Below are positions 24,731 to 38,705 of a stretch of DNA of 38,705 bases, one piece after another; position 1 is the stretch's first letter, and each line of letters opens with the position of its first letter. The position numbers were made by a program, and so were the translations under genes. The stretch covers positions 1 to 38,705 of the IMG/VR virus record IMGVR_UViG_3300043786_000104, one strand, 5' to 3'. The notes under the pieces are model-generated. The model searched no databases. It worked only from the letters and a program-made list of their open reading frames with translations, and was not told where the DNA came from. Source of the stretch: a virus.

Positions 24731-26617
24731 GTGACTTTTCAGAAGACTAATAACCCCCGTACCGCTATGGCAGCAGAGGCTAAAGCCAAAGTTTTGGCGC
24801 TGGTATCTGAAGGTATGTCGGTACATAGGGCTATGGAACAAAATGGCAAAAAGCCAGACACTGTTCGTATCTGGTGTTTAAGAGACCCAGCCTTTGCTAC
24901 CGCCCTTGTCGAGGCAAAGGAAAACGCTAAAGAGCGTTCATTGAAAGCCATGGGCGTAGCCCGTGAAGATATTACCTTTCCTCAGTTCTCTGAGATGTTT
25001 TTGGACCAGCGGGTTTTTCCACATCATATGGATTGGATTGACCTATTAGAGGGACGCGAGCCTTCGTGGTTACACCCCAATATGATTTACGAGCCAGGCA
25101 ATCGGAACCGCCTACTTCTAAACGTTCCCCCTGAGCACGCCAAATCAACCGTCATTACGGTTAACTACGCAACTTATCGCATCGCTCTCAATCCGAACGT
25201 CCGCATTATTGTGGTGTCAAAGACCCTTATCAAAGCACGCGAGTTCGTGTACGCAATCAAGCAGAGATTATCTCACCCGCGCTGGCTCAAGTTACAAACA
25301 ACCTTTGGGCCTGAAGGGGGATGGAAAGAAGACTCAGATACTTGGCGAGTTGATACGGTCTACCTTGGGAGTGATGCGAGAAACTCAAGTGAAAAAGACC
25401 CAACAATCCAGGCACTGGGTATGGGTGGGCAGATTTATGGTGCCCGCGCTGACCTGATTATCCTAGATGACTGCATAACTACCTCTAACGCTCACGAGCA
25501 TGAGAAGCAGATTAACTGGTTACAAAAGGAAGTTATTACCCGTCTGGGCAAAAATGGTAAGTTACTGGTGGTAGGTACCCGTATTGCGCCATCTGATTTT
25601 TATAAAGAACTCCGCGACCCTAAACATTGGTCTGGTGGCAAGTCACCTTTCACATACATGGGTATGCCAGCCGTTCTTGAGTATGGGGATAAGCCAGCAG
25701 AGTGGGAAACCCTTTGGCCTGCAAGTGATATACCTTGGGATGGGGATGAAGATACGCCACCTGATGAGAATGGGTTATACCCTAAGTGGGATGGCGAAAC
25801 GCTTTTCAAGCGTAGAAGCGAAGTAACACCAGCAACATGGGCGCTTGTTTACCAACAAGAAGATGTAGTTGAAGATTCAATCTTTCCACCTGAACTGGTG
25901 CAAGGTTCCATCAATGGTATGCGTAAGCGTGGACCGTTAAGACCAGGGGTTACAGGACATCCACCTCAAGTTGAGGGTTACACTATTGTGGGCTTTGACC
26001 CTGCTATGGCGGGTAATGCTGCATTTGTGGCTATTACCTATAACAGGACAGATGGAAAGATTTATGTTCTGGATTGTTTAAACATGACAGAACCAACACC
26101 GCAAAAGATTAGGCAGGCCATTGAAGATTTTACGCTTCGGTATAAACCGCAAGAGTTCCGAGTTGAAATCAATGCCCACCAAAAAGCCTACTCCCTTGAC
26201 GAAGAACTACGAACATGGCTCTCTTCACACGGCGTACGGCTTAATTCTCACTTTACAGGCAAGAACAAATGGGACACAAACTTCGGTGTGGCATCTATGT
26301 CAACGCTCTTTGGCACTAGCCGTGAAGGCAAGTTCCAAAAGAACAACATTGTAGAATTACCTAGTACTGAAAACTCAGAAGGTTTAAAGGCGTTAGTCCA
26401 ACAGTTAATTACTTGGAAGCCTGATACCAGAGGTAAGACAGATACTGTTATGGCTTTATGGTTTGCGGTTATCCGTGCCCGTGAGTTTATGCAGCAAAAT
26501 AGCAATATCGCTAGGTACGCCAACAATCGTTGGGCTACCAGAGCACAGCAACACAAACGAACATCAATTAACTTAGATGAGGCCGCATCTGAAATGTGGA
26601 ATCACCAATACGGATAA
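24731..26617 (+). CDS. terL: Terminase large subunit with fused N-terminal HTH (small-subunit-like) domain
   Basis: The 628-aa motor packages DNA. Residues about 18-66 (KVLALVSEGMSVHRAMEQNG, then TVRIWCLRDPAFATALVEAK) look like the homeodomain-type DNA-binding domain of small terminases. The ATPase has Walker A VPPEHAKST (132-140), Walker B LIILDD (242-247) and motif III VVGTRI (280-285). The nuclease has GFDPAMAG (Asp423), FRVEINAHQ (Glu479) and GKTDTVMALWF (Asp about 583). Start GTG 24731 has only a weak GGGA site; ATG 24767 is an alternative that would keep the HTH. No separate terS gene is seen. Confidence 0.92.
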   Translation: MTFQKTNNPRTAMAAEAKAKVLALVSEGMSVHRAMEQNGKKPDTVRIWCLRDPAFATALVEAKENAKERSLKAMGVAREDITFPQFSEMFLDQRVFPHHMDWIDLLEGREPSWLHPNMIYEPGNRNRLLLNVPPEHAKSTVITVNYATYRIALNPNVRIIVVSKTLIKAREFVYAIKQRLSHPRWLKLQTTFGPEGGWKEDSDTWRVDTVYLGSDARNSSEKDPTIQALGMGGQIYGARADLIILDDCITTSNAHEHEKQINWLQKEVITRLGKNGKLLVVGTRIAPSDFYKELRDPKHWSGGKSPFTYMGMPAVLEYGDKPAEWETLWPASDIPWDGDEDTPPDENGLYPKWDGETLFKRRSEVTPATWALVYQQEDVVEDSIFPPELVQGSINGMRKRGPLRPGVTGHPPQVEGYTIVGFDPAMAGNAAFVAITYNRTDGKIYVLDCLNMTEPTPQKIRQAIEDFTLRYKPQEFRVEINAHQKAYSLDEELRTWLSSHGVRLNSHFTGKNKWDTNFGVASMSTLFGTSREGKFQKNNIVELPSTENSEGLKALVQQLITWKPDTRGKTDTVMALWFAVIRAREFMQQNSNIARYANNRWATRAQQHKRTSINLDEAASEMWNHQYG

Positions 26618-27083: not shown

Positions 27084-28826
27084 ATGCTTTCTATAGAACA
27101 AATTTCTGCACGGGTTGCATCTCTTAAAGACCGTGCTGCAGAGCGTGATGCACGCCAACAAGATGTTCTTGCTGTCCGTAAAGGACAGATAGCAAGTGTT
27201 TACCCAGACTTTTTTCCACAGGGTGTTGACGCTAACGTAGTTGCTAACTTTATTGACATTGTAGCCCGTGACCTATCAGAGGTAATGGCTCCATTGCCAT
27301 CTGTTAATTGTTCTGCTGCTAACCAAGCAAACGACCGTGCTCGCAAGTTTGCAGACACACGTACTCGTATTGCTAATAATTATTTTGCAAACTCTGATTT
27401 GCAAGTACAGATGTACACAGGCGCAGACATGTACATTACATTTGGTTTCGTCCCTTTCATTATTGAATTAGACGAAGAAGCAGGGCTACCGCGTATCCGC
27501 GTAGAAAATCCAGTGGGGGCTTACCCAGAATTTGACCGCTACGGACGCTGTATTGCCTTTGCTAAGCGTTATTACTTGAGCATTGGAGAACTCGCTTCAG
27601 AGTTCCCTGAGTATGCAAGAGAACTCCTTGGTCCAGAAATGTACAAGGGAGACCTTAACGCACAACTAGAGATAATTCGTTACTACGATGCACAACAATC
27701 TCTGTTGTTTGTTCCAGATAGAAACAATTTAGTTTTATCTAAGGCGGCTAATCCGCTTGGTAAGATGATGGTTGTTGTTGCCAAGCGTCCATCAGTTGAT
27801 GGTGAGATGCGTGGACAGTTTGATGATGTATTGGGTATTCAGTTGCTTCGTAACAGGTTCGCATTACTTGCGATGGAAGCAGCAGAGAAGTCAGTACAGG
27901 CTCCAATTGTTCTACCAACAGATGTAACAGAACTTGAACTGGGTGGCGATGCAATTATTCGCACAGCAAACCCAGCAGGTGTGAGACGCGTAGACCTTAA
28001 CATTCCACCTGGTGCATTTACTGAGCAGGCTTTGTTACAGCAGGAACTACGAACAGGAACACGCTACCCAGAGGGACGTACTGGAAACATTGATGCTTCC
28101 ATTATTACTGGTCAAGGTGTTCAAGCACTTATGGGTGGCTTTGATACACAGGTTAAATCTGCTCAGGCTATCTTTGCTTCTGCATTACGAGATGTTATCT
28201 CTGTATGTTTTGAAGTAGACGAGAAGTTTTTTGATGTTGAAAAGACAATTCGTGGTGTAGATGCAGGTTCTCCTTACAGTCTTACATACAAGCCAGGCAA
28301 AGACATTAAGCGTGACTTTACCGCTGATGTCCGATACGGCATGCTTGCTGGGCTTAACCCAGCACAAGGACTTATTTTTATGTTACAAGCGTTAGGTGGT
28401 GGATTAATTTCTACAGACCTAGCAATGCGTGAACTACCATTTGGTATTAACGTAACACAAGAGCAAGAAAAAATTGAAATTGAAAATATGCGTAAAGCAC
28501 TGGTTAGTTCTTTGCAAGCATATACACAAGCAATTCCACAAATGGCTGTACAAGGTGGGGACCCATCGGGCGTGGTAAAGAAAATTGCTGGAGTTATTAA
28601 GGCTCGTCAACGTGGCATACCAGTAGAGGATGCCGTTGAAGAAGTCTTTGCGCCAGAATTACCTCCTGCTGGTGCACAGGTTGAGCAACCGTCCCCTGTT
28701 CCCGCCGCGCCAGCAGGAGGCGCTCCTCAAGCACCACAAGGTCCAGCACCACTACAAAGTCTTTTAGCAAGTTTAACATCAGGCGGAGAAGCCTCAGCAT
28801 CAGCAAGGACAGTTACGCGACGCTAG
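27084..28826 (+). CDS. Portal protein
   Basis: The 580-aa product fits phage portals by size and layout: N-terminal helices, VVANFIDIVARDLSEVMAPL, AYPEFDRYGRCIAFAKRYYL, a long central alpha/beta part with GVRRVDLNIPPGAFTEQALL and TGRTGNIDASIITGQGVQAL-like linkage (YPEGRTGNIDASIITGQG), then a helical C-terminus. The last 60 residues are a Pro/Ala/Gly-rich tail ending SARTVTRR. It forms the 12-mer through which DNA enters. It lies between terminase and the hydrolase. Confidence 0.85.
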   Translation: MLSIEQISARVASLKDRAAERDARQQDVLAVRKGQIASVYPDFFPQGVDANVVANFIDIVARDLSEVMAPLPSVNCSAANQANDRARKFADTRTRIANNYFANSDLQVQMYTGADMYITFGFVPFIIELDEEAGLPRIRVENPVGAYPEFDRYGRCIAFAKRYYLSIGELASEFPEYARELLGPEMYKGDLNAQLEIIRYYDAQQSLLFVPDRNNLVLSKAANPLGKMMVVVAKRPSVDGEMRGQFDDVLGIQLLRNRFALLAMEAAEKSVQAPIVLPTDVTELELGGDAIIRTANPAGVRRVDLNIPPGAFTEQALLQQELRTGTRYPEGRTGNIDASIITGQGVQALMGGFDTQVKSAQAIFASALRDVISVCFEVDEKFFDVEKTIRGVDAGSPYSLTYKPGKDIKRDFTADVRYGMLAGLNPAQGLIFMLQALGGGLISTDLAMRELPFGINVTQEQEKIEIENMRKALVSSLQAYTQAIPQMAVQGGDPSGVVKKIAGVIKARQRGIPVEDAVEEVFAPELPPAGAQVEQPSPVPAAPAGGAPQAPQGPAPLQSLLASLTSGGEASASARTVTRR

Positions 28827-28841
28827 CCTAAGGAGGGGACA

Positions 28842-29414
28842 ATGACAACGCTTGTAGCAATTCAAGGAAATGGTTGGGCAGCCGTTGGCTGTGATTCCCG
28901 TTCATCTGGTGATGATGGTCGCTTTATGGAACTAGCAACACATAAGATTATTGAAAACAACGGAATCTTAATTGCGGGTTCAGGCGCTAGTCGTGGTTCT
29001 AACATTTTGCAGTTTGGGTGGAAAGCCCCTAAGCCACGTGCTACAGATGACTTAGATGTGTTTATGACACAGACGTTTATACCAGCAATGCGTAAATTGT
29101 TTATTGATTCTGGTTATGACATGAAAGAGGACGGAGACGCAGCAGCACATGATTCGCAATTTCTTCTTGTCGTTCGTGGAGTTATTTACCCTATCTTTGA
29201 AGATTATTCTTGGGACCGCGATGTTCGTGGTATCTATTGTTCTGGCAGTGGTGCTGACATTGCTCTCGGTGCCATTGAGGCTTTTGCTAATTCTAGAAAA
29301 CAAACTACGCCGAAGGTGGCGGAACTAGATATTAGAATGGCAATTAAAATTGCATCTCGTTGGGACATTCATACGGCTGAACCAGTTGTAGTAAAAGTAC
29401 AGAGTGCAAAATGA
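28842..29414 (+). CDS. Proteasome/HslV-like Ntn hydrolase
   Basis: The 190-aa product starts MTTLVAIQGNGWAAVGCDSR. Removal of Met exposes Thr; Asp18 (the usual Asp17 after processing) in GCDSRSS and Lys35 in THKIIENNGILIAGSGASRG match the Thr1/Asp17/Lys33 set of proteasome beta subunits. RGVIYPIFEDYSWDRDVRGI, YCSGSGADIALGAIEAF follow, like the S(G/A)GSGxxxAxGAl(E) signature of that fold. AAGGAGG lies 6 bases before ATG. It sits after the portal, where the head-maturation protease is usual, so it may cleave scaffold or capsid, or act on host proteins. No propeptide is present. Confidence 0.82.
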   Translation: MTTLVAIQGNGWAAVGCDSRSSGDDGRFMELATHKIIENNGILIAGSGASRGSNILQFGWKAPKPRATDDLDVFMTQTFIPAMRKLFIDSGYDMKEDGDAAAHDSQFLLVVRGVIYPIFEDYSWDRDVRGIYCSGSGADIALGAIEAFANSRKQTTPKVAELDIRMAIKIASRWDIHTAEPVVVKVQSAK

Positions 29415-29677
29415 GTAAAGAGTTTAGAGACAAAATAGAAGAAGCATTACGAATCCTTGTAGAAGAGGATGAGAAGGGGACTGAGTTTATCTGCACTAAC
29501 TGGTTAATTATAACCGAATGGGCAGACTACGAAGGGTCCCGATATTTACACACAGAAGTTAGCGATGCCATGACACCGTGGAACGCATACGGCATGATGA
29601 AGATGGCACAAGAGTACAACAGCGAAGTACTTGGTACTAAGCACGAACCTATTGAGCAAGAGGAGGATGAAGAGTGA
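29411..29677 (+). CDS. Small acidic protein, hydrolase partner candidate
   Basis: The 88-aa product has FICTNWLIITEWADYEGSRY and DAMTPWNAYGMMKMAQEYNS, with an acidic tail EPIEQEEDEE. A W..I.EW.D..G.R.L...M.PWNAYGM pattern recurs in actinophage genes. It overlaps both neighbours by 4 bases. The acidic tail resembles nothing like Pup (no GGE/GGQ end). Function unknown. Confidence 0.7.
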   Translation: MSKEFRDKIEEALRILVEEDEKGTEFICTNWLIITEWADYEGSRYLHTEVSDAMTPWNAYGMMKMAQEYNSEVLGTKHEPIEQEEDEE

Positions 29678-30102
29678 CAACTGCACCTATGGATAACCGT
29701 GGTGGGTATCGCCCAACAGCCCCTCAAAATAATCCAGCAAATGTTTCAGCAACTGGTGGCAATGGACAATCAGGCCGTGCTACACAACCTGCAAAGTATA
29801 TTGCTGGCATGCCATACGGCGAAGGACAAGCAACCATGGAACAACAAATGGGTGCACCTATGCAGGGTACTGAGCAAGTTGGAACTAGTCGTTTAGATAT
29901 TACTCCATTAACTGCTGAAACAAAGTTTAAAGATGAACCAATTACTGCTGGTGCAGATTTTGGTCCTGGTCCTGATTCTAGCATTTTAAATCTTCCTAGC
30001 ACTGAGCAAACAATTCTTTCTGTTATTAGAAAGATTGCACAGCAAGACCCAACTGGTGACAGTGAATTAATTTATCGTATGCTAGAAGATAGTGGTGCTT
30101 AA
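29674..30102 (+). CDS. Disordered Gly/Pro/Gln-rich protein
   Basis: The GTG start overlaps the upstream stop. The 142-aa product has a disordered N-terminal half (GGYRPTAPQNNPANVSATGG) and a helical end (STEQTILSVIRKIAQQDPTG). Such proteins before the large internal protein are common in this phage type. Scaffold-like or virion assembly roles are possible. Confidence 0.65.
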   Translation: MTTAPMDNRGGYRPTAPQNNPANVSATGGNGQSGRATQPAKYIAGMPYGEGQATMEQQMGAPMQGTEQVGTSRLDITPLTAETKFKDEPITAGADFGPGPDSSILNLPSTEQTILSVIRKIAQQDPTGDSELIYRMLEDSGA

Positions 30103-33100
30103 TGCCAGAGGTGCCACTAGACCCATCTGTAGCACAGTTAAGTCCTAACTTTTATTCTGCTGCTATTAAATCAACCCTTGATGCTAAATCAAGAGTAATG
30201 ATTGAACAGTTATCTCAAAGCCACAAAAAAGGTAAAGACTTACTTAAACTAAGTGATAAAAAAGCACGTGAAGAGTTTTTAAAACTTGACCCAATTGTGC
30301 AGAACAACATCCGTTATATTTATTCTGACAAAGAACAATTCTTACCAGAACAAAATTTAGTAGGTAAAGTTGTTCAAGGCATTGGTAAAGCAGCAATGGG
30401 AACTGCTACAGGAATCTTTAGTCCATTTATTGCAGCATTTAAAGTTGCAGAAGAATATGGACAGGTTTTAAATACAGCAAACATTGCTCGTGCTCAAATG
30501 GAACAAGGTAAACCATTTACAAAGAAACTTCTTTCAGATTCTTATAATGGATTAAACTCTTGGCGATGGGATAAAGTTGCTAAATTTGAAAAGCAATATG
30601 GAAAAGCATTAATTGCTTTAGCAAGAGGCAATGCAGAAGGCCGCACAATTAGTGAGTCAATTGATGAATATGGCACAGTTGATGCTGACATGTATGCTGC
30701 TATTCAATTTATGGGCGACGAGCCTACTAAGTTTCAAAACCTTTTAGATACTCTTAAGTTAGAGACTCAGGTTTCACCAGGCCGTGACTTTGCAAATAAA
30801 ATGCCAACAAACAACACTACTGTTAATAAAAATCACTGGGCTGTTAAGTTTACTAAAATGTTGGGTATTGATGTATCAACTAAAGAGGGCGTAACAAAAG
30901 CCAAAAAACTTGTTTCAGGACCAGTTGATGCTATTTACCAGGTTGCTATTGACCCATTAACTTATGTTGGTGTAGGTCCTGCAGTTAAAGCATTTACCAA
31001 AGGCGTAGATGGTATTCAAGTTGGTGCAAAAGAAGCATTACAATTTGTTGGTTTAAAGTCTCGCGGACAAAGAATGGCAGACCAGTATCAGTTTATTTCT
31101 GAAAAGGCTGGCACCGCTTCTGCTGGAATGGACTGGGCGTTTCGCCAACCAGAAGTTGTTAACCTTTGGGATAACGAACTAGGTCCTTTGTTTAAAAAGT
31201 ATACAGAGTCTTCAAGCCCAACTGTTAAATCACAGGTATGGAATGAAATTAAACAAGGCTATCCACAGTATCGCAATAGAGAGTTAGTAAAATTAGTTTC
31301 AACAGAGATGAAAAAAACTAATGATTACAATGCTGCTGGTGCAAAACGATTCTTTACACAAGTAGATGACTTTGACACAATGCTTAGTGGTCCAGTCGAT
31401 GGTGTTTCATTTCGCCGTGATGGTATTCCTGTTGCTCGTTTTTATAGAAACATGACATCTGCAGTTCATAGAACTGCTTATGATTTGTTTAATCCTACTG
31501 TTGGCGCAAAAGCAACTGATGATGCAATCCGTCAAAATGACGAAGGTCTAAAGTCTATTATGGATACATTAAAAACAGTATCTAATGACTCAGAAGTTTT
31601 ACTTAATCCAAACATTGAAGATATTTTTGCACTACAAAGCAATGTAAAAAGCGCACGTAAGATTGCCTATCAAATTGGAACTGGTTTAAGCCGTTCGCCT
31701 GGTCGTATTCTTTGGGGCGATGATTCCATTAAGACGGTTGAAAGCGTAAGAAACCTAGCCAACCAGGTAATGGATACAAAGTTTGCAGATGCTTTTGCTG
31801 AGGCTTATCCAAACGAACCAGCAGAAGTTCAGATTACAATGATTCGTAATCTTTACAATGCATTTATGATTAAAATTGGAATGTACGGTAGCCCTGGCGG
31901 TAAGGCTCAAGCAGAAGAAATCCTTGCTAAAACCTTTAACGAAACAGGTATGCTTTCTACAACAAGAAGCGAAGTGCCTCTTGAGTGGGTAGATGAGATT
32001 AGCCCTAATTTAATTCGTTATGAAAACGATATTCCATTTCAGGCTTCAAAGGGAATTATTGAACCATCTCAGATGACAGATGGTATATCACCACTTCCTT
32101 ACGATTTGTTGTATCAGTATGCTGCTACATCTAAACTAAGTGAAAAGACTAACTTTACAAATCTACTTGGTGGGGCAACAAGAAATAATTTTGTTCGCAA
32201 ATACACAGACTTTTGGGCAGACCTTACACTTTACCCACGTCTAGGTATACGTTCTGCTATTGACGAAACATTTTTCTTTTTTATGTATGCTCCTTACTAC
32301 GATGTCAAAGCATTTCTTAAGGGTGAAGCAATATTCCCAACAAGAGCCTTAACCTCTATTACTGGTTCCAAGGCATCTCAAGGTCAGTATGCTCGTGGCG
32401 TTTATAAGGTCATGAAAAATCTTGACCCAACCAAAAAATTTAGCCCAGAGGTTCGTTATAACGCTATTAAAAAGTTAGCGGAAATGGAATCTGTTAAGCG
32501 TGGATACAATGTTCCACAAGCAGAAATCTCAATGGCATTGATTCGTGAAGACATGGTTTATCGTGCTCAAGATTTGTACAAAAATACTGTTTCAGAATCA
32601 ACTTGGAAAAACATTGAAAAGTTAATGCGTAATAATCCAGTTGTATTTGAGTCAATGATTAACTCAATGGGTGCACGTTCTTCTATATCTGGAAAGATAG
32701 ATGTAGATTTTATAGATTCAATGTTTACTCCTAGCAATTTGAGTAAAATGATGACAGATGCTGGACTTGTAAAGAGTGGTAAGTATACTCCTCGACAGGT
32801 TTCAGAAATGTCAGAGTCAGCCATTGCTGTAACTCATTTTGATAACTGGTCTATTCGTTTTCCTTACAACAGTGAGCCTATTGCACCTGGAATAAAGTTA
32901 TCTCCAGCCCCAGTTTTTTACAAGCATAACGCATTAAAGACAAAAGATGATTTTATTGCAGCCCGTAATGAGTTAATGGAATCTATGGGTGTTGGATACA
33001 ATGATGAAATTGAAGGCTTCGCTGTAACTAACCCAGAACTAGCCAAAAGATTCTTATCAAAGTTTTCATCAACAGTTTACTACCGTCAAAAAGGTGTACC

Positions 33101-35405
33101 AGATGAGGCAATTGCACGTATCCATGTAGAGAACATGCTTCTTGACATGAGAAATACATTTCATGGTGGGCCAAACACTTACAATGAAGAACTATTTGAT
33201 TTAGTTAAAAGCAAGTATGCAGAAATTGAAATTTTCCGCATGAAGTCTAAGCAAAGCATGGACAATGCTTGGGAAAATGCATCTGCTGCTCTTACCTTTG
33301 ATGAGTTCCAGAAAGCAACAGTAGGTCGCCACCCAGTAAGTGGGGAAATTAATACACGACTTGTTAGCCATGGAGACAATAAAGACATGGCTGTCTTTGA
33401 AGAAGAAGGCGGATTGCCTAAGATTCTTGAAAAGTTCCAGAACTGGTCTATGGAAGTAATGGATGCAACCGTTACTGGTATGTATCGCCAGAAGGCTTTG
33501 TGGATTTACTTTGACCAAAGAATGGATAGTCTTGTTCCTTACGAAAACATGCTACGCAATCGCATGGAAAAGGAATTAATTGAGCAAGGCATGTCACCAG
33601 CACTGGCTAAAACAAGAGCGGCAGCCCATGCTGAGAAACAAACTGTTGAAATTGCCTTTAAAGACTCAAGCGAAAAACTTTTAGAGTATGTAGATAACCC
33701 AGAAGTTAAGTCTAACTTTGCAGTATCGGTCCGTTCTGTTGGTAGATTCTACCGTGCAACAGAAGACTTCCATCGCCGCATGTATCGCCTGTTTACAAAA
33801 GCACCATTACGTACTCTATATCGTTTGCGTTTACTAAACACTGGTTTAGATGCAGCAGGAGATGTTTACGAAGATGATAAGGGAGACAAGTATGTTGTAT
33901 TCCCTACAGATACTATTATTAACTCTGCAATTGAACCAGTTATTCGTACCTTAACTGGCAACAAGACATTTAACATACCAACATTTAATGACATTACATT
34001 AAAGTTGCGTTTGATTAACCCATCTTTTGCACCCGATGCTGGTCAACCAGCGTTTGCTGGTCCTATTGGAGCAGTAAGCATTCTTTCTCTTCGTGCATTA
34101 CTACGTAATATAGTTCCATTTGCCGAAAGAATTATACCTGGCAATCAAGAGGGTATGGTTGCAGAATTACAACCTAGATTTGAAAAAGCCGCTGACGTAG
34201 TTGGTCAGATTGGATTAGGCAACTTTGCTGATTCAATGACATTTAGAAAAGCAATAACACCTATGCTTGTTGATACAAGTATGGGTGCATTATCAACGCT
34301 TACTCCATATGAGTGGGATAGACAGACTACAACTGCAACTCTTCAGGCAATGGCTTATTTCCAGGCTAATGGAATGGGTATTTCAGAGGATGCCACAGCC
34401 GAAGAAAAGAAAAAGTATATTGATAATCTAAAGATTTCTGTTAGCAATATTATGATTGGTCGCACTATCTTGGGTTATATATCTCCAGGTATGCCAACAT
34501 TTAAGGAAAGTAAAGACCTACCTGCATACATGCGTAAGGTTGGCATTACATCCTTTAAGGCAGAGTTCTGGGATATTTACAATGGTATTCTTCGTAATGC
34601 TGGTGATGATGTTAGCGATGTATTTGACCTAGCAGTTGCTACATTTGTAGGCAAAAATCCAGGCAAGATAATCTGGACAGTGCCACGCACCGATAAGGAA
34701 TACAAAGTATTTATTGCACAGACAACTGAGGTTAAAGACTGGGCTATTAAAAACAAGTCCTTTGTAGATACCTATAAAGAAGTTGCTTATTTGTTTGCGC
34801 CACGTGCTGGTGATTATAACTCAGATGTTTATAACTGGCTACAAGCAGAAGGTTTAATTAAGTTACCAGAGTTTGAGGATTACTTACTACGCCTTCAAAT
34901 TGCAGAAGATAAAGAAAAATACTTTGAAATCGGCAATCAATTAGAAAAAAGACTTGAAGCGGTTGGCATAACACAAGAACGCAAAGAGTTAATTAACATT
35001 GCTGCTCAATCTAAAAAAGATTTAATTACTTCTAATCCTTATCTAGAGGCTGCTATTAATGGTTCTATTAATGAGCGTGGCGAACTAGGTAAAAAGTTTA
35101 AGACCCTTAATGAGGCAATCAATAGTAATAAAACTCCTGTTGATGCGCAGACTCGTAAGGCCATGAAACTAATTCTTGAAGAAGTAGCATCCTTTGTTGT
35201 TATGGCTGAGGATGAATCTATGGGTAGACGCTATGACTTTACTCAAATTAAAGAACAAAGAAAACTAGAGATAGTAGAAATTATTGACAAGTTAGTTAAG
35301 TCTAGCCCAGCAATTTCTGAAGCAAATAGATTGATATTTAAACCATTACTTAATTCATATTCAAGAGATGTTAATACGGCAGGTCCTACGGAGGTAAATA
35401 GATAA
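30102..35405 (+). CDS. Giant internal virion (ejection) protein, 1767 aa
   Basis: This gene takes about 14% of the genome. The product is mostly helical with a PVDAIYQVAIDPLTYVGVGP motif near residue 280, a membrane-capable segment GIGKAAMGTATGIFSPFIAA (about 95-115), an aromatic patch IDETFFFFMYAPYYD near 722-736 and long charged helices. Large helical proteins with an IDPLTY segment that follow portal genes in podoviruses are candidates for DNA-ejection proteins in the style of T7 gp16 or N4 gp50. No transglycosylase or polymerase motif is visible. It overlaps both neighbours (TAATG). Confidence 0.6.
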   Translation: MPEVPLDPSVAQLSPNFYSAAIKSTLDAKSRVMIEQLSQSHKKGKDLLKLSDKKAREEFLKLDPIVQNNIRYIYSDKEQFLPEQNLVGKVVQGIGKAAMGTATGIFSPFIAAFKVAEEYGQVLNTANIARAQMEQGKPFTKKLLSDSYNGLNSWRWDKVAKFEKQYGKALIALARGNAEGRTISESIDEYGTVDADMYAAIQFMGDEPTKFQNLLDTLKLETQVSPGRDFANKMPTNNTTVNKNHWAVKFTKMLGIDVSTKEGVTKAKKLVSGPVDAIYQVAIDPLTYVGVGPAVKAFTKGVDGIQVGAKEALQFVGLKSRGQRMADQYQFISEKAGTASAGMDWAFRQPEVVNLWDNELGPLFKKYTESSSPTVKSQVWNEIKQGYPQYRNRELVKLVSTEMKKTNDYNAAGAKRFFTQVDDFDTMLSGPVDGVSFRRDGIPVARFYRNMTSAVHRTAYDLFNPTVGAKATDDAIRQNDEGLKSIMDTLKTVSNDSEVLLNPNIEDIFALQSNVKSARKIAYQIGTGLSRSPGRILWGDDSIKTVESVRNLANQVMDTKFADAFAEAYPNEPAEVQITMIRNLYNAFMIKIGMYGSPGGKAQAEEILAKTFNETGMLSTTRSEVPLEWVDEISPNLIRYENDIPFQASKGIIEPSQMTDGISPLPYDLLYQYAATSKLSEKTNFTNLLGGATRNNFVRKYTDFWADLTLYPRLGIRSAIDETFFFFMYAPYYDVKAFLKGEAIFPTRALTSITGSKASQGQYARGVYKVMKNLDPTKKFSPEVRYNAIKKLAEMESVKRGYNVPQAEISMALIREDMVYRAQDLYKNTVSESTWKNIEKLMRNNPVVFESMINSMGARSSISGKIDVDFIDSMFTPSNLSKMMTDAGLVKSGKYTPRQVSEMSESAIAVTHFDNWSIRFPYNSEPIAPGIKLSPAPVFYKHNALKTKDDFIAARNELMESMGVGYNDEIEGFAVTNPELAKRFLSKFSSTVYYRQKGVPDEAIARIHVENMLLDMRNTFHGGPNTYNEELFDLVKSKYAEIEIFRMKSKQSMDNAWENASAALTFDEFQKATVGRHPVSGEINTRLVSHGDNKDMAVFEEEGGLPKILEKFQNWSMEVMDATVTGMYRQKALWIYFDQRMDSLVPYENMLRNRMEKELIEQGMSPALAKTRAAAHAEKQTVEIAFKDSSEKLLEYVDNPEVKSNFAVSVRSVGRFYRATEDFHRRMYRLFTKAPLRTLYRLRLLNTGLDAAGDVYEDDKGDKYVVFPTDTIINSAIEPVIRTLTGNKTFNIPTFNDITLKLRLINPSFAPDAGQPAFAGPIGAVSILSLRALLRNIVPFAERIIPGNQEGMVAELQPRFEKAADVVGQIGLGNFADSMTFRKAITPMLVDTSMGALSTLTPYEWDRQTTTATLQAMAYFQANGMGISEDATAEEKKKYIDNLKISVSNIMIGRTILGYISPGMPTFKESKDLPAYMRKVGITSFKAEFWDIYNGILRNAGDDVSDVFDLAVATFVGKNPGKIIWTVPRTDKEYKVFIAQTTEVKDWAIKNKSFVDTYKEVAYLFAPRAGDYNSDVYNWLQAEGLIKLPEFEDYLLRLQIAEDKEKYFEIGNQLEKRLEAVGITQERKELINIAAQSKKDLITSNPYLEAAINGSINERGELGKKFKTLNEAINSNKTPVDAQTRKAMKLILEEVASFVVMAEDESMGRRYDFTQIKEQRKLEIVEIIDKLVKSSPAISEANRLIFKPLLNSYSRDVNTAGPTEVNR

Positions 35406-36250: not shown

Positions 36251-37249
36251 ATGGCAGACTTGGCTACCCTTCAACAGCAATATGACAATGAATTAAAAGC
36301 AATTAATGATATGCCACCAGGGGCTGCAAAAACAAGGATGCAATTAGATTTTGATGTTAAGTATCCTAAAGGTAGACCACAAAAGGTAGAAGATACAGCC
36401 AATGAAGGTGCAGCAGCAGCGTTGGCATATGGTATAACAGAATCTTTAATTGCTGCCTTTCCAGAACTACGTCCTATTTATGAAAAGTTTTTGGCTAAAG
36501 ATTATGCTGGTGCTAGATTAGATTACTTTGCAACTAATTATTATAAAAACCTAACTGATTCTGCTAAGACTCGACAGGGATTAAAAGCAACAGCCCGTGG
36601 TCAGTATGACCAACAACTAGAAGCATATCGTTTAAATCAACGTAAGCGTTTAACTGCTAAAGGTATTAACCTAGATAATGAATCTTTTAATCTTTTTACA
36701 GAAACTGCATTTGATTCAGGGCTAGATGAAAATCAATTAGATATCAGGATTCTTAATTCTGGAAAGTTTGGTCCAATTGGTGGCTCTACTCTTGGATTAG
36801 TTAATACACTTAAAGCCTATGCTGACGATTATGGTGTAAACAATCTATTAAACCAATCGTTCTGGGACCAGAAATCTACGGATTTATTTGCTGGCAGAAT
36901 TACAGAGGATGACCTAGAGCAAGAAATTCGTAATCTATCTGCTAGTGCCTATGCTGCTTATGCACCTGGCATTATGGCTGGTCGTACCCTTGCTTCACAA
37001 ACATCTGCAATTAAACAAACATATGCAAACCTATATGGTTTAGACCCAGATGCTGTGTCTTATAGTGCACCAAACTTTATGAAGTTACTTCAATATGTAG
37101 ACCCTAAGACTAAGCAACCAGCACCTATTCCTTTATGGGAAGCGGAAAAGATTATTAAATCTCAAGATGATTGGTTGTATTCAAAGCCCGCTCAAGACCA
37201 ATTCAACCAGGTTGGTGTTGGAATCCTTAAAGAATGGAAACTTATTTAA
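36251..37249 (+). CDS. Internal virion protein (332 aa)
   Basis: The product starts MADLATLQQQYDNELKAIND, has helices YGITESLIAAFPELRPIYEK and RQGLKATARGQYDQQLEAYR. A repeated helical unit EQEIRNLSASAYAAYAPGIM followed by LYGLDPDAVSYSAPNFMKLL resembles the AxxYG-L x-D-x-D units of the next gene. It overlaps that gene by 1 base (TAATG). A virion ejection role is inferred. Confidence 0.55.
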   Translation: MADLATLQQQYDNELKAINDMPPGAAKTRMQLDFDVKYPKGRPQKVEDTANEGAAAALAYGITESLIAAFPELRPIYEKFLAKDYAGARLDYFATNYYKNLTDSAKTRQGLKATARGQYDQQLEAYRLNQRKRLTAKGINLDNESFNLFTETAFDSGLDENQLDIRILNSGKFGPIGGSTLGLVNTLKAYADDYGVNNLLNQSFWDQKSTDLFAGRITEDDLEQEIRNLSASAYAAYAPGIMAGRTLASQTSAIKQTYANLYGLDPDAVSYSAPNFMKLLQYVDPKTKQPAPIPLWEAEKIIKSQDDWLYSKPAQDQFNQVGVGILKEWKLI

Positions 37250-38705
37250 TGGCTGATGCAAGCGTTGCGTTAAGAAAACTTCAGTCAGGTCAGGCATTAA
37301 ATGATGCTGAAAAAAAGATTCTTGGTATATCTGTAACTGTTGTTACTCCTACTCCTGCGGTAACACCTGTAGTTACAGATAATGTTATGGAAGAGGCTAT
37401 TCCTTTAAATGTTAAGGGTGGCACTGGAGGAACTTCTACCGATACATCTAAAATAACACAGGCTGAAATAACCGCTGCTTCTGTTGCTGCTGCAAGAGAA
37501 CTAGCAATGACACCTTATACAGAACTTTCCGCAGCCGAACGTGCTGCAATGAGTCAAGCAGAAAAGACTGCTTATCTTAAGGCAGCCCGAGATGAAAAAA
37601 ATGCTATTGATGCAGAAGAACGTGCAGCATCTAACCCTATGTTTGATTTTACAAATCGTCCCGATGCACCAGCATCAACAGATGGTAGTTTTATTAATTA
37701 TTATTCTTGGCAAGGTGATACTAATAGTGGTAGTTGGAAACTTTATCGTGCTGCTAATACTCCAGAAAATTTAGTAAAATATGGTTCTCGCGCAATAGGT
37801 GGTGCAACACAAGCAGAGCCTGGTAACCCATCAGGTGCAAATGCTTTAGCAGTTCAACCACAGCCAATTAAAGATGCTTATGGTAATATTACTGGTTGGA
37901 CAGTTCCTGGTGATGGTTCAACAATAGATGCAACTACAACAACAGCCACAACAACCACACCAGCAACTACTACTACAACAACAACCACTGCATCAACAAC
38001 GGCAACAACAACAAGACCTACAACAACAACTGCTACAACTACTACAGCAACAACAACTGTACCAACAGGTCTTGATGCTCAAACTACTGCTTTAATTAAA
38101 TCTTTACAGGACCAAATTGCAGCATTGACCAAACAGGTTACTGGTACAACAACAGCAGCAGCGGAACAAAAAGCACTTGATGAAAAGATACGTAAAGAAA
38201 ATGCGCTTGCTAGTTTAACTTCTACATTTACTAAATATAACTTGCAGTCTTTAATTCCAAAAATTAAAGAATTGGTTATTAATGGTGCAACCGAATCTAC
38301 TATTACTTTAGAACTAGCAGAAACTCCTGAGTATAAGCAAAGATTTAAAGCAAATCAGGAGCGGTTAAAAAAGAATTTAGCGGTACTAGACCCAGGTACT
38401 TATATTGGCATGGAAGATTCATACCGCCAAGCATTACGCGCATATGGCTTAAAGCAATTTGATACTGATGATTATGTATCTCAGTTTATTGCTAACGATA
38501 TTTCTGCTAATGAATTGTCTAACCGTATTGTTACTGCCGTTCAGCGTGTGCAAAACGCTGACCCAGCAATTACAAAACAATTACGAGACTTTTATAACAT
38601 TGGTCAGAATGACCTTGTTGCTTATGTGCTTGACCCTAACCAACAGTTCCAGAAGATTGAACGTCAAGTTCAGGCTGCTGAGATTGGTGTTGCAGCAGCC
38701 CGTCA
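37249..38705 (+). CDS. Thr-linker virion protein, N-terminal part (continues to 431)
   Basis: The 586-aa product (joined to 1-431) begins MADASVALRKLQSGQALNDA. It has a helical region, and residues about 226-275 are a Thr-rich linker (coded by ACA/ACT repeats 37921-38060; for example TTTTATTTTPATTTTTTTTT). A coiled coil follows (LIKSLQDQIAALTKQV). After that come ETPEYKQRFKANQERLKKNL, EDSYRQALRAYGLKQFDTDD, and VSQFIANDISANELSNRIV with ADPAITKQLRDFYNIGQNDL. The D-P-Y-L-G-like repeated units resemble the preceding protein. A mucin-like flexible linker points to a protein that spans compartments. Confidence 0.7.
   Translation, partial: MADASVALRKLQSGQALNDAEKKILGISVTVVTPTPAVTPVVTDNVMEEAIPLNVKGGTGGTSTDTSKITQAEITAASVAAARELAMTPYTELSAAERAAMSQAEKTAYLKAARDEKNAIDAEERAASNPMFDFTNRPDAPASTDGSFINYYSWQGDTNSGSWKLYRAANTPENLVKYGSRAIGGATQAEPGNPSGANALAVQPQPIKDAYGNITGWTVPGDGSTIDATTTTATTTTPATTTTTTTTASTTATTTRPTTTTATTTTATTTVPTGLDAQTTALIKSLQDQIAALTKQVTGTTTAAAEQKALDEKIRKENALASLTSTFTKYNLQSLIPKIKELVINGATESTITLELAETPEYKQRFKANQERLKKNLAVLDPGTYIGMEDSYRQALRAYGLKQFDTDDYVSQFIANDISANELSNRIVTAVQRVQNADPAITKQLRDFYNIGQNDLVAYVLDPNQQFQKIERQVQAAEIGVAAAR
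38579..38705. repeat. Terminal direct repeat, right copy
   Basis: Identical to bases 1-127. It lies inside the coding sequence of the 586-aa virion protein, and the frame is continuous, so the repeat is redundant sequence from circular assembly. Confidence 0.95.

Follow-up and report, generated by a model that had tools for sequence, protein, structure and literature searches.

What does a proteasome-like hydrolase do when its gene directly follows the portal gene of a virus? This question is raised by a stretch of viral DNA of 38,705 nucleotides (IMG/VR record IMGVR_UViG_3300043786_000104, positions 1 to 38,705; in the following referred to as the window). Here, a reading of the sequence alone had recognized an N-terminal-Thr hydrolase in what it called the head-protease position and had proposed either a Thr-type capsid-maturation protease or a factor competing with the host proteasome. 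Our analysis favors another answer, to which a probability of roughly 0.6 can be assigned: the protein is a working Thr peptidase of the HslV/BPH branch (BPH: beta-proteobacterial proteasome homologue), forming a ring like that of BPH that operates with no ATPase of its own, made late and serving an accessory role rather than that of an obligatory capsid-maturation protease. The genes relevant for the argument are the following:

28842-29414, + strand: proteasome-like (BPH/HslV-type) N-terminal-Thr hydrolase, 190 aa, with Thr2, Asp18, Lys35, Gly48 and Gly-Ser-Gly at 135-137
27084-28826, + strand: portal protein (PHROG 104, E = 9e-29; also supported by synteny), fixed left border of the slot holding the hydrolase
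29411-29677, + strand: g88, an acidic 88-aa protein starting with an ATG that overlaps the stop codon of the hydrolase
29674-30102, + strand: g142, a hypervariable 142-aa protein (PHROG 8200), bounding the exchanged cassette on its right
24731-26617, + strand: terminase large subunit, with an N-terminus matching small-terminase models
511-1020, + strand: scaffold-like protein encoded ahead of the capsid protein, weakly matching Capsid assembly scaffolding protein Gp46 and scaffold PHROGs
1052-2254, + strand: major capsid protein of the N4-gp56 family (family match), 400 aa
14070-14417, - strand: WhiB-family regulator (E = 3e-17)

The hydrolase gene starts 16 bases past the portal stop codon and is preceded by a clear ribosome-binding site (AAGGAGGGGACA-ATG), which is present in relatives, too. 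As the window carries a perfect direct terminal repeat of 127 bp (1-127 = 38579-38705), the assembly is circular with a length of ~38,578 bp, and this ~38.6-kb genome is probably complete. The presence of a WhiB-family regulator suggests that the host of this freshwater phage is probably actinobacterial. Regarding the supposed head-protease position, the hydrolase gene does lie directly behind the portal gene, but scaffold and capsid genes do not adjoin it: the scaffold gene starts ~9.7 kb downstream across the circular junction, and hence the usual portal-protease-scaffold-capsid block is absent here. Several further features of this genome were observed. The gene at 37234 runs across the circular junction into 48-431, and the N-terminus of the terminase large subunit (24731-26617) matches HTH models in addition to small-terminase models, so that, judged from its sequence, this protein may be a small-large terminase fusion. 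The capsid protein (1052-2254) carries ~80 extra residues (~252-334) that are absent in seven of eight matched relatives. A fast-evolving 1767-aa protein (30102-35405) displays no clear family match and only ~30% identity where the portals of two phages are 78% identical; it is a candidate for an internal or ejected virion protein. Moreover, the freshwater phage group has its head gene order in common with the Streptomyces Beephvirinae podoviruses (27084-28826 compared with NC_048686.1).

The proposed proteasome beta/HslV-type fold was confirmed by several approaches. In profile searches, the hydrolase matches PHROG 1040 ('peptidase HslV family') with an E-value of 3.9e-19, and it reaches 18 bits (E = 0.0024) with the Pfam Proteasome model, which is below the curated gathering score of 22.4. 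With 15.7 and 16.7 bits against cut-offs of 157.75 and 137 for the NCBIfam HslV equivalog models, it does not qualify as HslV in the strict sense. The single sequence gave no match when searched against the PDB; a profile of 21 relatives retrieved BPH (E = 8e-14), HslV (E = 3e-12) and mycobacterial PrcB (E of ~3e-5). Structure prediction and structural search, as called for by the sequence-only reading, yielded an Ntn hydrolase and not another fold. The AlphaFold model (pLDDT 88, pTM 0.85) displays the proteasome-like arrangement of a beta-sheet core between helix pairs over the full predicted length. BPH is its top structural match (Z = 19.9; 2.5 Å over 175 residues), proteasome beta subunits reach Z-scores of 17.7-19.3, and in Foldseek the HslV chains rank right after BPH. 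By sequence profile and match of the predicted structure, the hydrolase is nearest to BPH, in the sense of likeness and not of clade placement. No further proteasome-like match, and thus no alpha-subunit partner, was found in the whole record, and two scans of genome contigs yielded no cellular relatives.

In the precursor, the catalytic residues are Thr2, Asp18 and Lys35, corresponding to Thr1, Asp17 and Lys34 after removal of Met. A lack of conservation of these residues among relatives had been named as grounds for abandoning the proposal; instead, they are the equivalents of proteasome Thr1, Asp17 and Lys33 and do not vary among 156 distinct full-length relatives. Likewise, Gly48 of the oxyanion hole (proteasome Gly47) is kept in 155 of the 156, and the position of Ser136 (proteasome Ser129) is always occupied by Ser or Thr. 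Three more relatives were left out of this set by their start pattern; among them, L121 and L152 start with MTAIV, so that Thr1 is kept there as well. Nearly all relatives start with M-T, and methionine aminopeptidase removes a Met that stands before Thr.

How tightly the hydrolase is linked to the portal was assessed in two samples. Among 80 IMG/VR relatives found by means of the hydrolase, the order terminase, portal, hydrolase, g88 and g142 is seen as far as contigs extend and genes can be recognized, and the hydrolase follows the portal in all portal-bearing loci. To avoid selection bias, a second sample was drawn by the ct2KA10 portal instead of the hydrolase, limited to the 80 top-ranking loci among at least 599 matches, 75 of these loci with enough sequence. 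Here, the hydrolase directly follows the portal in 65/75 loci, lies slightly further on in one and is lacking in nine (9/75), a proportion which, in a sample of top-ranking matches, is no population estimate. The relatives compared carry an 84-88% identical portal. In eight of the nine hydrolase-less ones, the place of hydrolase and g88 is taken by another short ORF of 73-79 aa, while the ninth (L103) has a g88-like ORF after the portal. The short ORFs (loci L119, L125, L127, L144, L149, L158, L167 and L168) display an acidic tail where read. As for g88, it follows the P- and C-type hydrolases defined below. As an obligatory partner of the hydrolase it was rejected, since D- and E-types mostly occur without it and L103 possesses g88 without the hydrolase.

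The hydrolases of this slot form the well-supported clades P (including the window), C, D and E as well as a DSL-LC01-like pair. P-type hydrolases share only 26-32% identity with those of types C, D and E, and versions sharing ~28% identity are paired with portals that are 84-90% identical; on the portal tree, the families are scattered with 18 state changes. Between the window and locus L036, nucleotide identity amounts to ~73% in the portal gene, 85-91% in the hydrolase and g88 genes and ~50-57% in the g142 gene, and this peak over hydrolase and g88 indicates a joint transfer of both genes as a cassette. Terminases differ even more than portals, meaning that mosaicism is general in this freshwater phage group; hence, swapping alone does not show selection for diversity. 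Since an AU test did not reject one clade for P-type and C/D/E-type hydrolases (p = 0.19), independent acquisition of the two by the slot is not claimed. Median dN/dS values in the four larger slot families (0.13 for P, 0.08 for D, 0.15 for C and 0.09 for E) place the hydrolase under purifying selection.

According to the preferred reading, the host would cleave off Met and thereby expose Thr1 without the need for a propeptide, and the subunits would assemble into a BPH/HslV-like ring, which would be gated by an acidic pore loop. Production late in infection is suggested by the position of the gene among portal and virion genes. Without an ATPase of its own, such a ring would digest unfolded or selected proteins, most likely host proteins or mis-assembled phage proteins, and this accessory function would be passed between phages as a cassette. 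A more specific version can be put forward tentatively. It assumes that the slot keeps a self-compartmentalizing Thr peptidase as a late, proteasome-like counter-host function directed, for instance, against host defense or stress factors, with alleles being swapped between phages because the host proteins to be destroyed differ between host strains. This version may apply, but we consider it doubtful.

The circular genome was searched for a ClpX/HslU-type unfoldase (AAA_2), and none was detected, while 14/14 control genomes were positive. In a comparison with one BPH and one HslV sequence over an alignment-defined segment, the charge of the stretch after the second helix is -4 in the P-type hydrolase, -5 in BPH and +2 in HslV; the pore loops of C- and D-types are only mildly acidic. 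In case of BPH, the long acidic pore loop has been tied to its apparent lack of an unfoldase (Fuchs et al.; PMC8665760). Host ClpX or ClpC could nevertheless act as unfoldase, and the host may possess an HslU. Alternatively, the hydrolase would be an HslV-like peptidase degrading chosen proteins by borrowing a host AAA+ unfoldase such as ClpX, ClpC or Mpa/ARC. The HslV fold relationship speaks in favor of this alternative, and with no unfoldase encoded by the phage, one of the host could be borrowed. Equivalog scores of only 15.7-16.7 bits against cut-offs of 137-158, together with the BPH-like charge of the pore loop, render it unlikely, however.

Even less probable is the role of a Thr-type prohead protease, which would replace the usual serine protease and cleave scaffold, portal or capsid protein during head maturation. 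The idea is attractive, since the gene directly follows the portal in nearly all relatives with such a portal and none of the scanned phage proteins matched a known prohead protease family. A prohead protease should, however, occur in all phages building the same head, whereas the hydrolase is missing from 9/75 near relatives as well as from Beephvirinae-type loci and genomes. Searching the nine records without hydrolase by means of the profile revealed no copy elsewhere, with 5/5 bearers run alongside being positive. Two of the hydrolase-less phages with near genome length, G001 (39.9 kb) and G002 (37.5 kb), share 97% capsid and 89% portal identity with the bearer G007. Capsid N-termini are alike in bearers and non-bearers, and scaffolds are of one kind in both (the G001 scaffold is 75-77% identical to those of G006 and G008, which are bearers; that of G007 was not recovered). 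The Streptomyces Beephvirinae, with ~45% identical portals, ~47% identical terminases and a similar gene order, point in the same direction: the hydrolase is absent from 80/80 contigs around portals of this type, and a profile search did not retrieve it from Immanuel3, Stella or FlowerPower, each covered as a whole genome. Abafar, a Beephvirinae-type member by portal similarity whose genome lay outside this profile search, forms normal podoviral particles with an icosahedral capsid as well as normal plaques (PMC11536984).

The occurrence of widely divergent alleles alongside near-identical portals likewise argues against a prohead protease, as do the homologues of other phages. In none of the phages DSL-LC01, D'Alembert, Pitbull, Pumpernickel, pT24, XacN1, MTATph1 and Geobacillus E3 does the gene adjoin portal or head genes; Pumpernickel, XacN1 and E3 carry it close to thyX or to genes for dCMP deaminase or DHFR. 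Hence, a link to head assembly does not hold for the entire family. Capsid maturation, the first role suggested from the sequence alone, is thus not supported by these comparisons; still, a dispensable protease can process virion proteins in those phages that carry it.

Two further explanations concern the kind of activity. Proteasome-like proteins include connectase, a monomeric ligase (PMC8665760), and by analogy the hydrolase might be a specific Ntn enzyme (ligase or amidase, connectase-like) instead of a degradative protease. This is very unlikely, as an insertion resembling the active-site cover of connectase is lacking and the compact, group-I-like fold matches BPH from end to end. That the protein acts as a decoy or competitor entering or blocking the host 20S proteasome, the second role suggested earlier, is hardly credible, even with a probably actinobacterial host (WhiB) and proteasomes being common in actinobacteria, because its profile lies nearer to BPH and HslV (E = 8e-14 and 3e-12) than to mycobacterial PrcB (~3e-5) and because all catalytic residues, needless for a decoy, are kept.

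Phage-borne PPH and AAH have been described by Fuchs, Alva and Lupas (2021; PMC8665760) as proteins with no known function and no telling gene context, and no Actinobacteria-specific phage encoding AAH was found in that study. Annotated phage relatives already bear labels such as 'HslV', 'Ntn hydrolase' or 'protease'. As phage proteasome homologues are thus already described (PHROG 1040; Fuchs 2021), the hydrolase itself is no new kind. The literature searched yielded no function of phage HslV-like proteins and no paper on proteasomes in Nanopelagicales, and neither Kavagutti (2019) nor the Nanopelagicales isolate paper mentions such a protein. What is new, and was not found in the papers searched, is a slot of abundant freshwater phages that is linked to the portal and in which alleles are swapped. 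Phage proteasome homologues hereby gain a fixed neighbor and a host group that is abundant, along with natural knock-outs and at least four alleles that can replace one another. With matched phages that carry or lack the hydrolase, the role of phage proteasomes becomes testable by comparison, and the appealing idea of a Thr-type capsid protease is removed as probably wrong.

Compared with known systems, the hydrolase resembles the prohead proteases (S14, U35, S78 and T4-type) in that its gene follows the portal. In contrast to them, it has an unrelated fold and nucleophile, is not encoded beside scaffold or capsid and is dispensable in phages whose heads are nearly the same. The PHROG 1040 relatives, among them those of Actinomycetia phage DSL-LC01, Arthrobacter phage Pitbull and Microbacterium phage Pumpernickel as well as Psychrobacter phage D'Alembert and Geobacillus virus E3, share full-length homology and the same catalytic residues, but unlike here their genes lie away from the head genes. 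Set against the published description of AAH and PPH (PMC8665760), the hydrolase exhibits the same group I features, compactness, lack of C-terminal S12/H5 and occurrence in phages, while being abundant in probable actinophages and having a fixed place beside the portal. With HslV (ClpQ), it shares the fold, the Thr-Thr start, Asp and Lys as well as the GSG segment; it differs in scoring far below the equivalog cut-offs, in the absence of HslU from the phage genome and in an oppositely charged pore loop. The closest likeness is that to BPH (5ovs, 5ovt, 5ovu), which provides the best profile and structure match and has Thr right after Met, a long acidic pore loop and a compact C-terminus in common with the hydrolase, whereas identity is as low as ~20%, the protein here is phage-encoded and its ring is a putative one.
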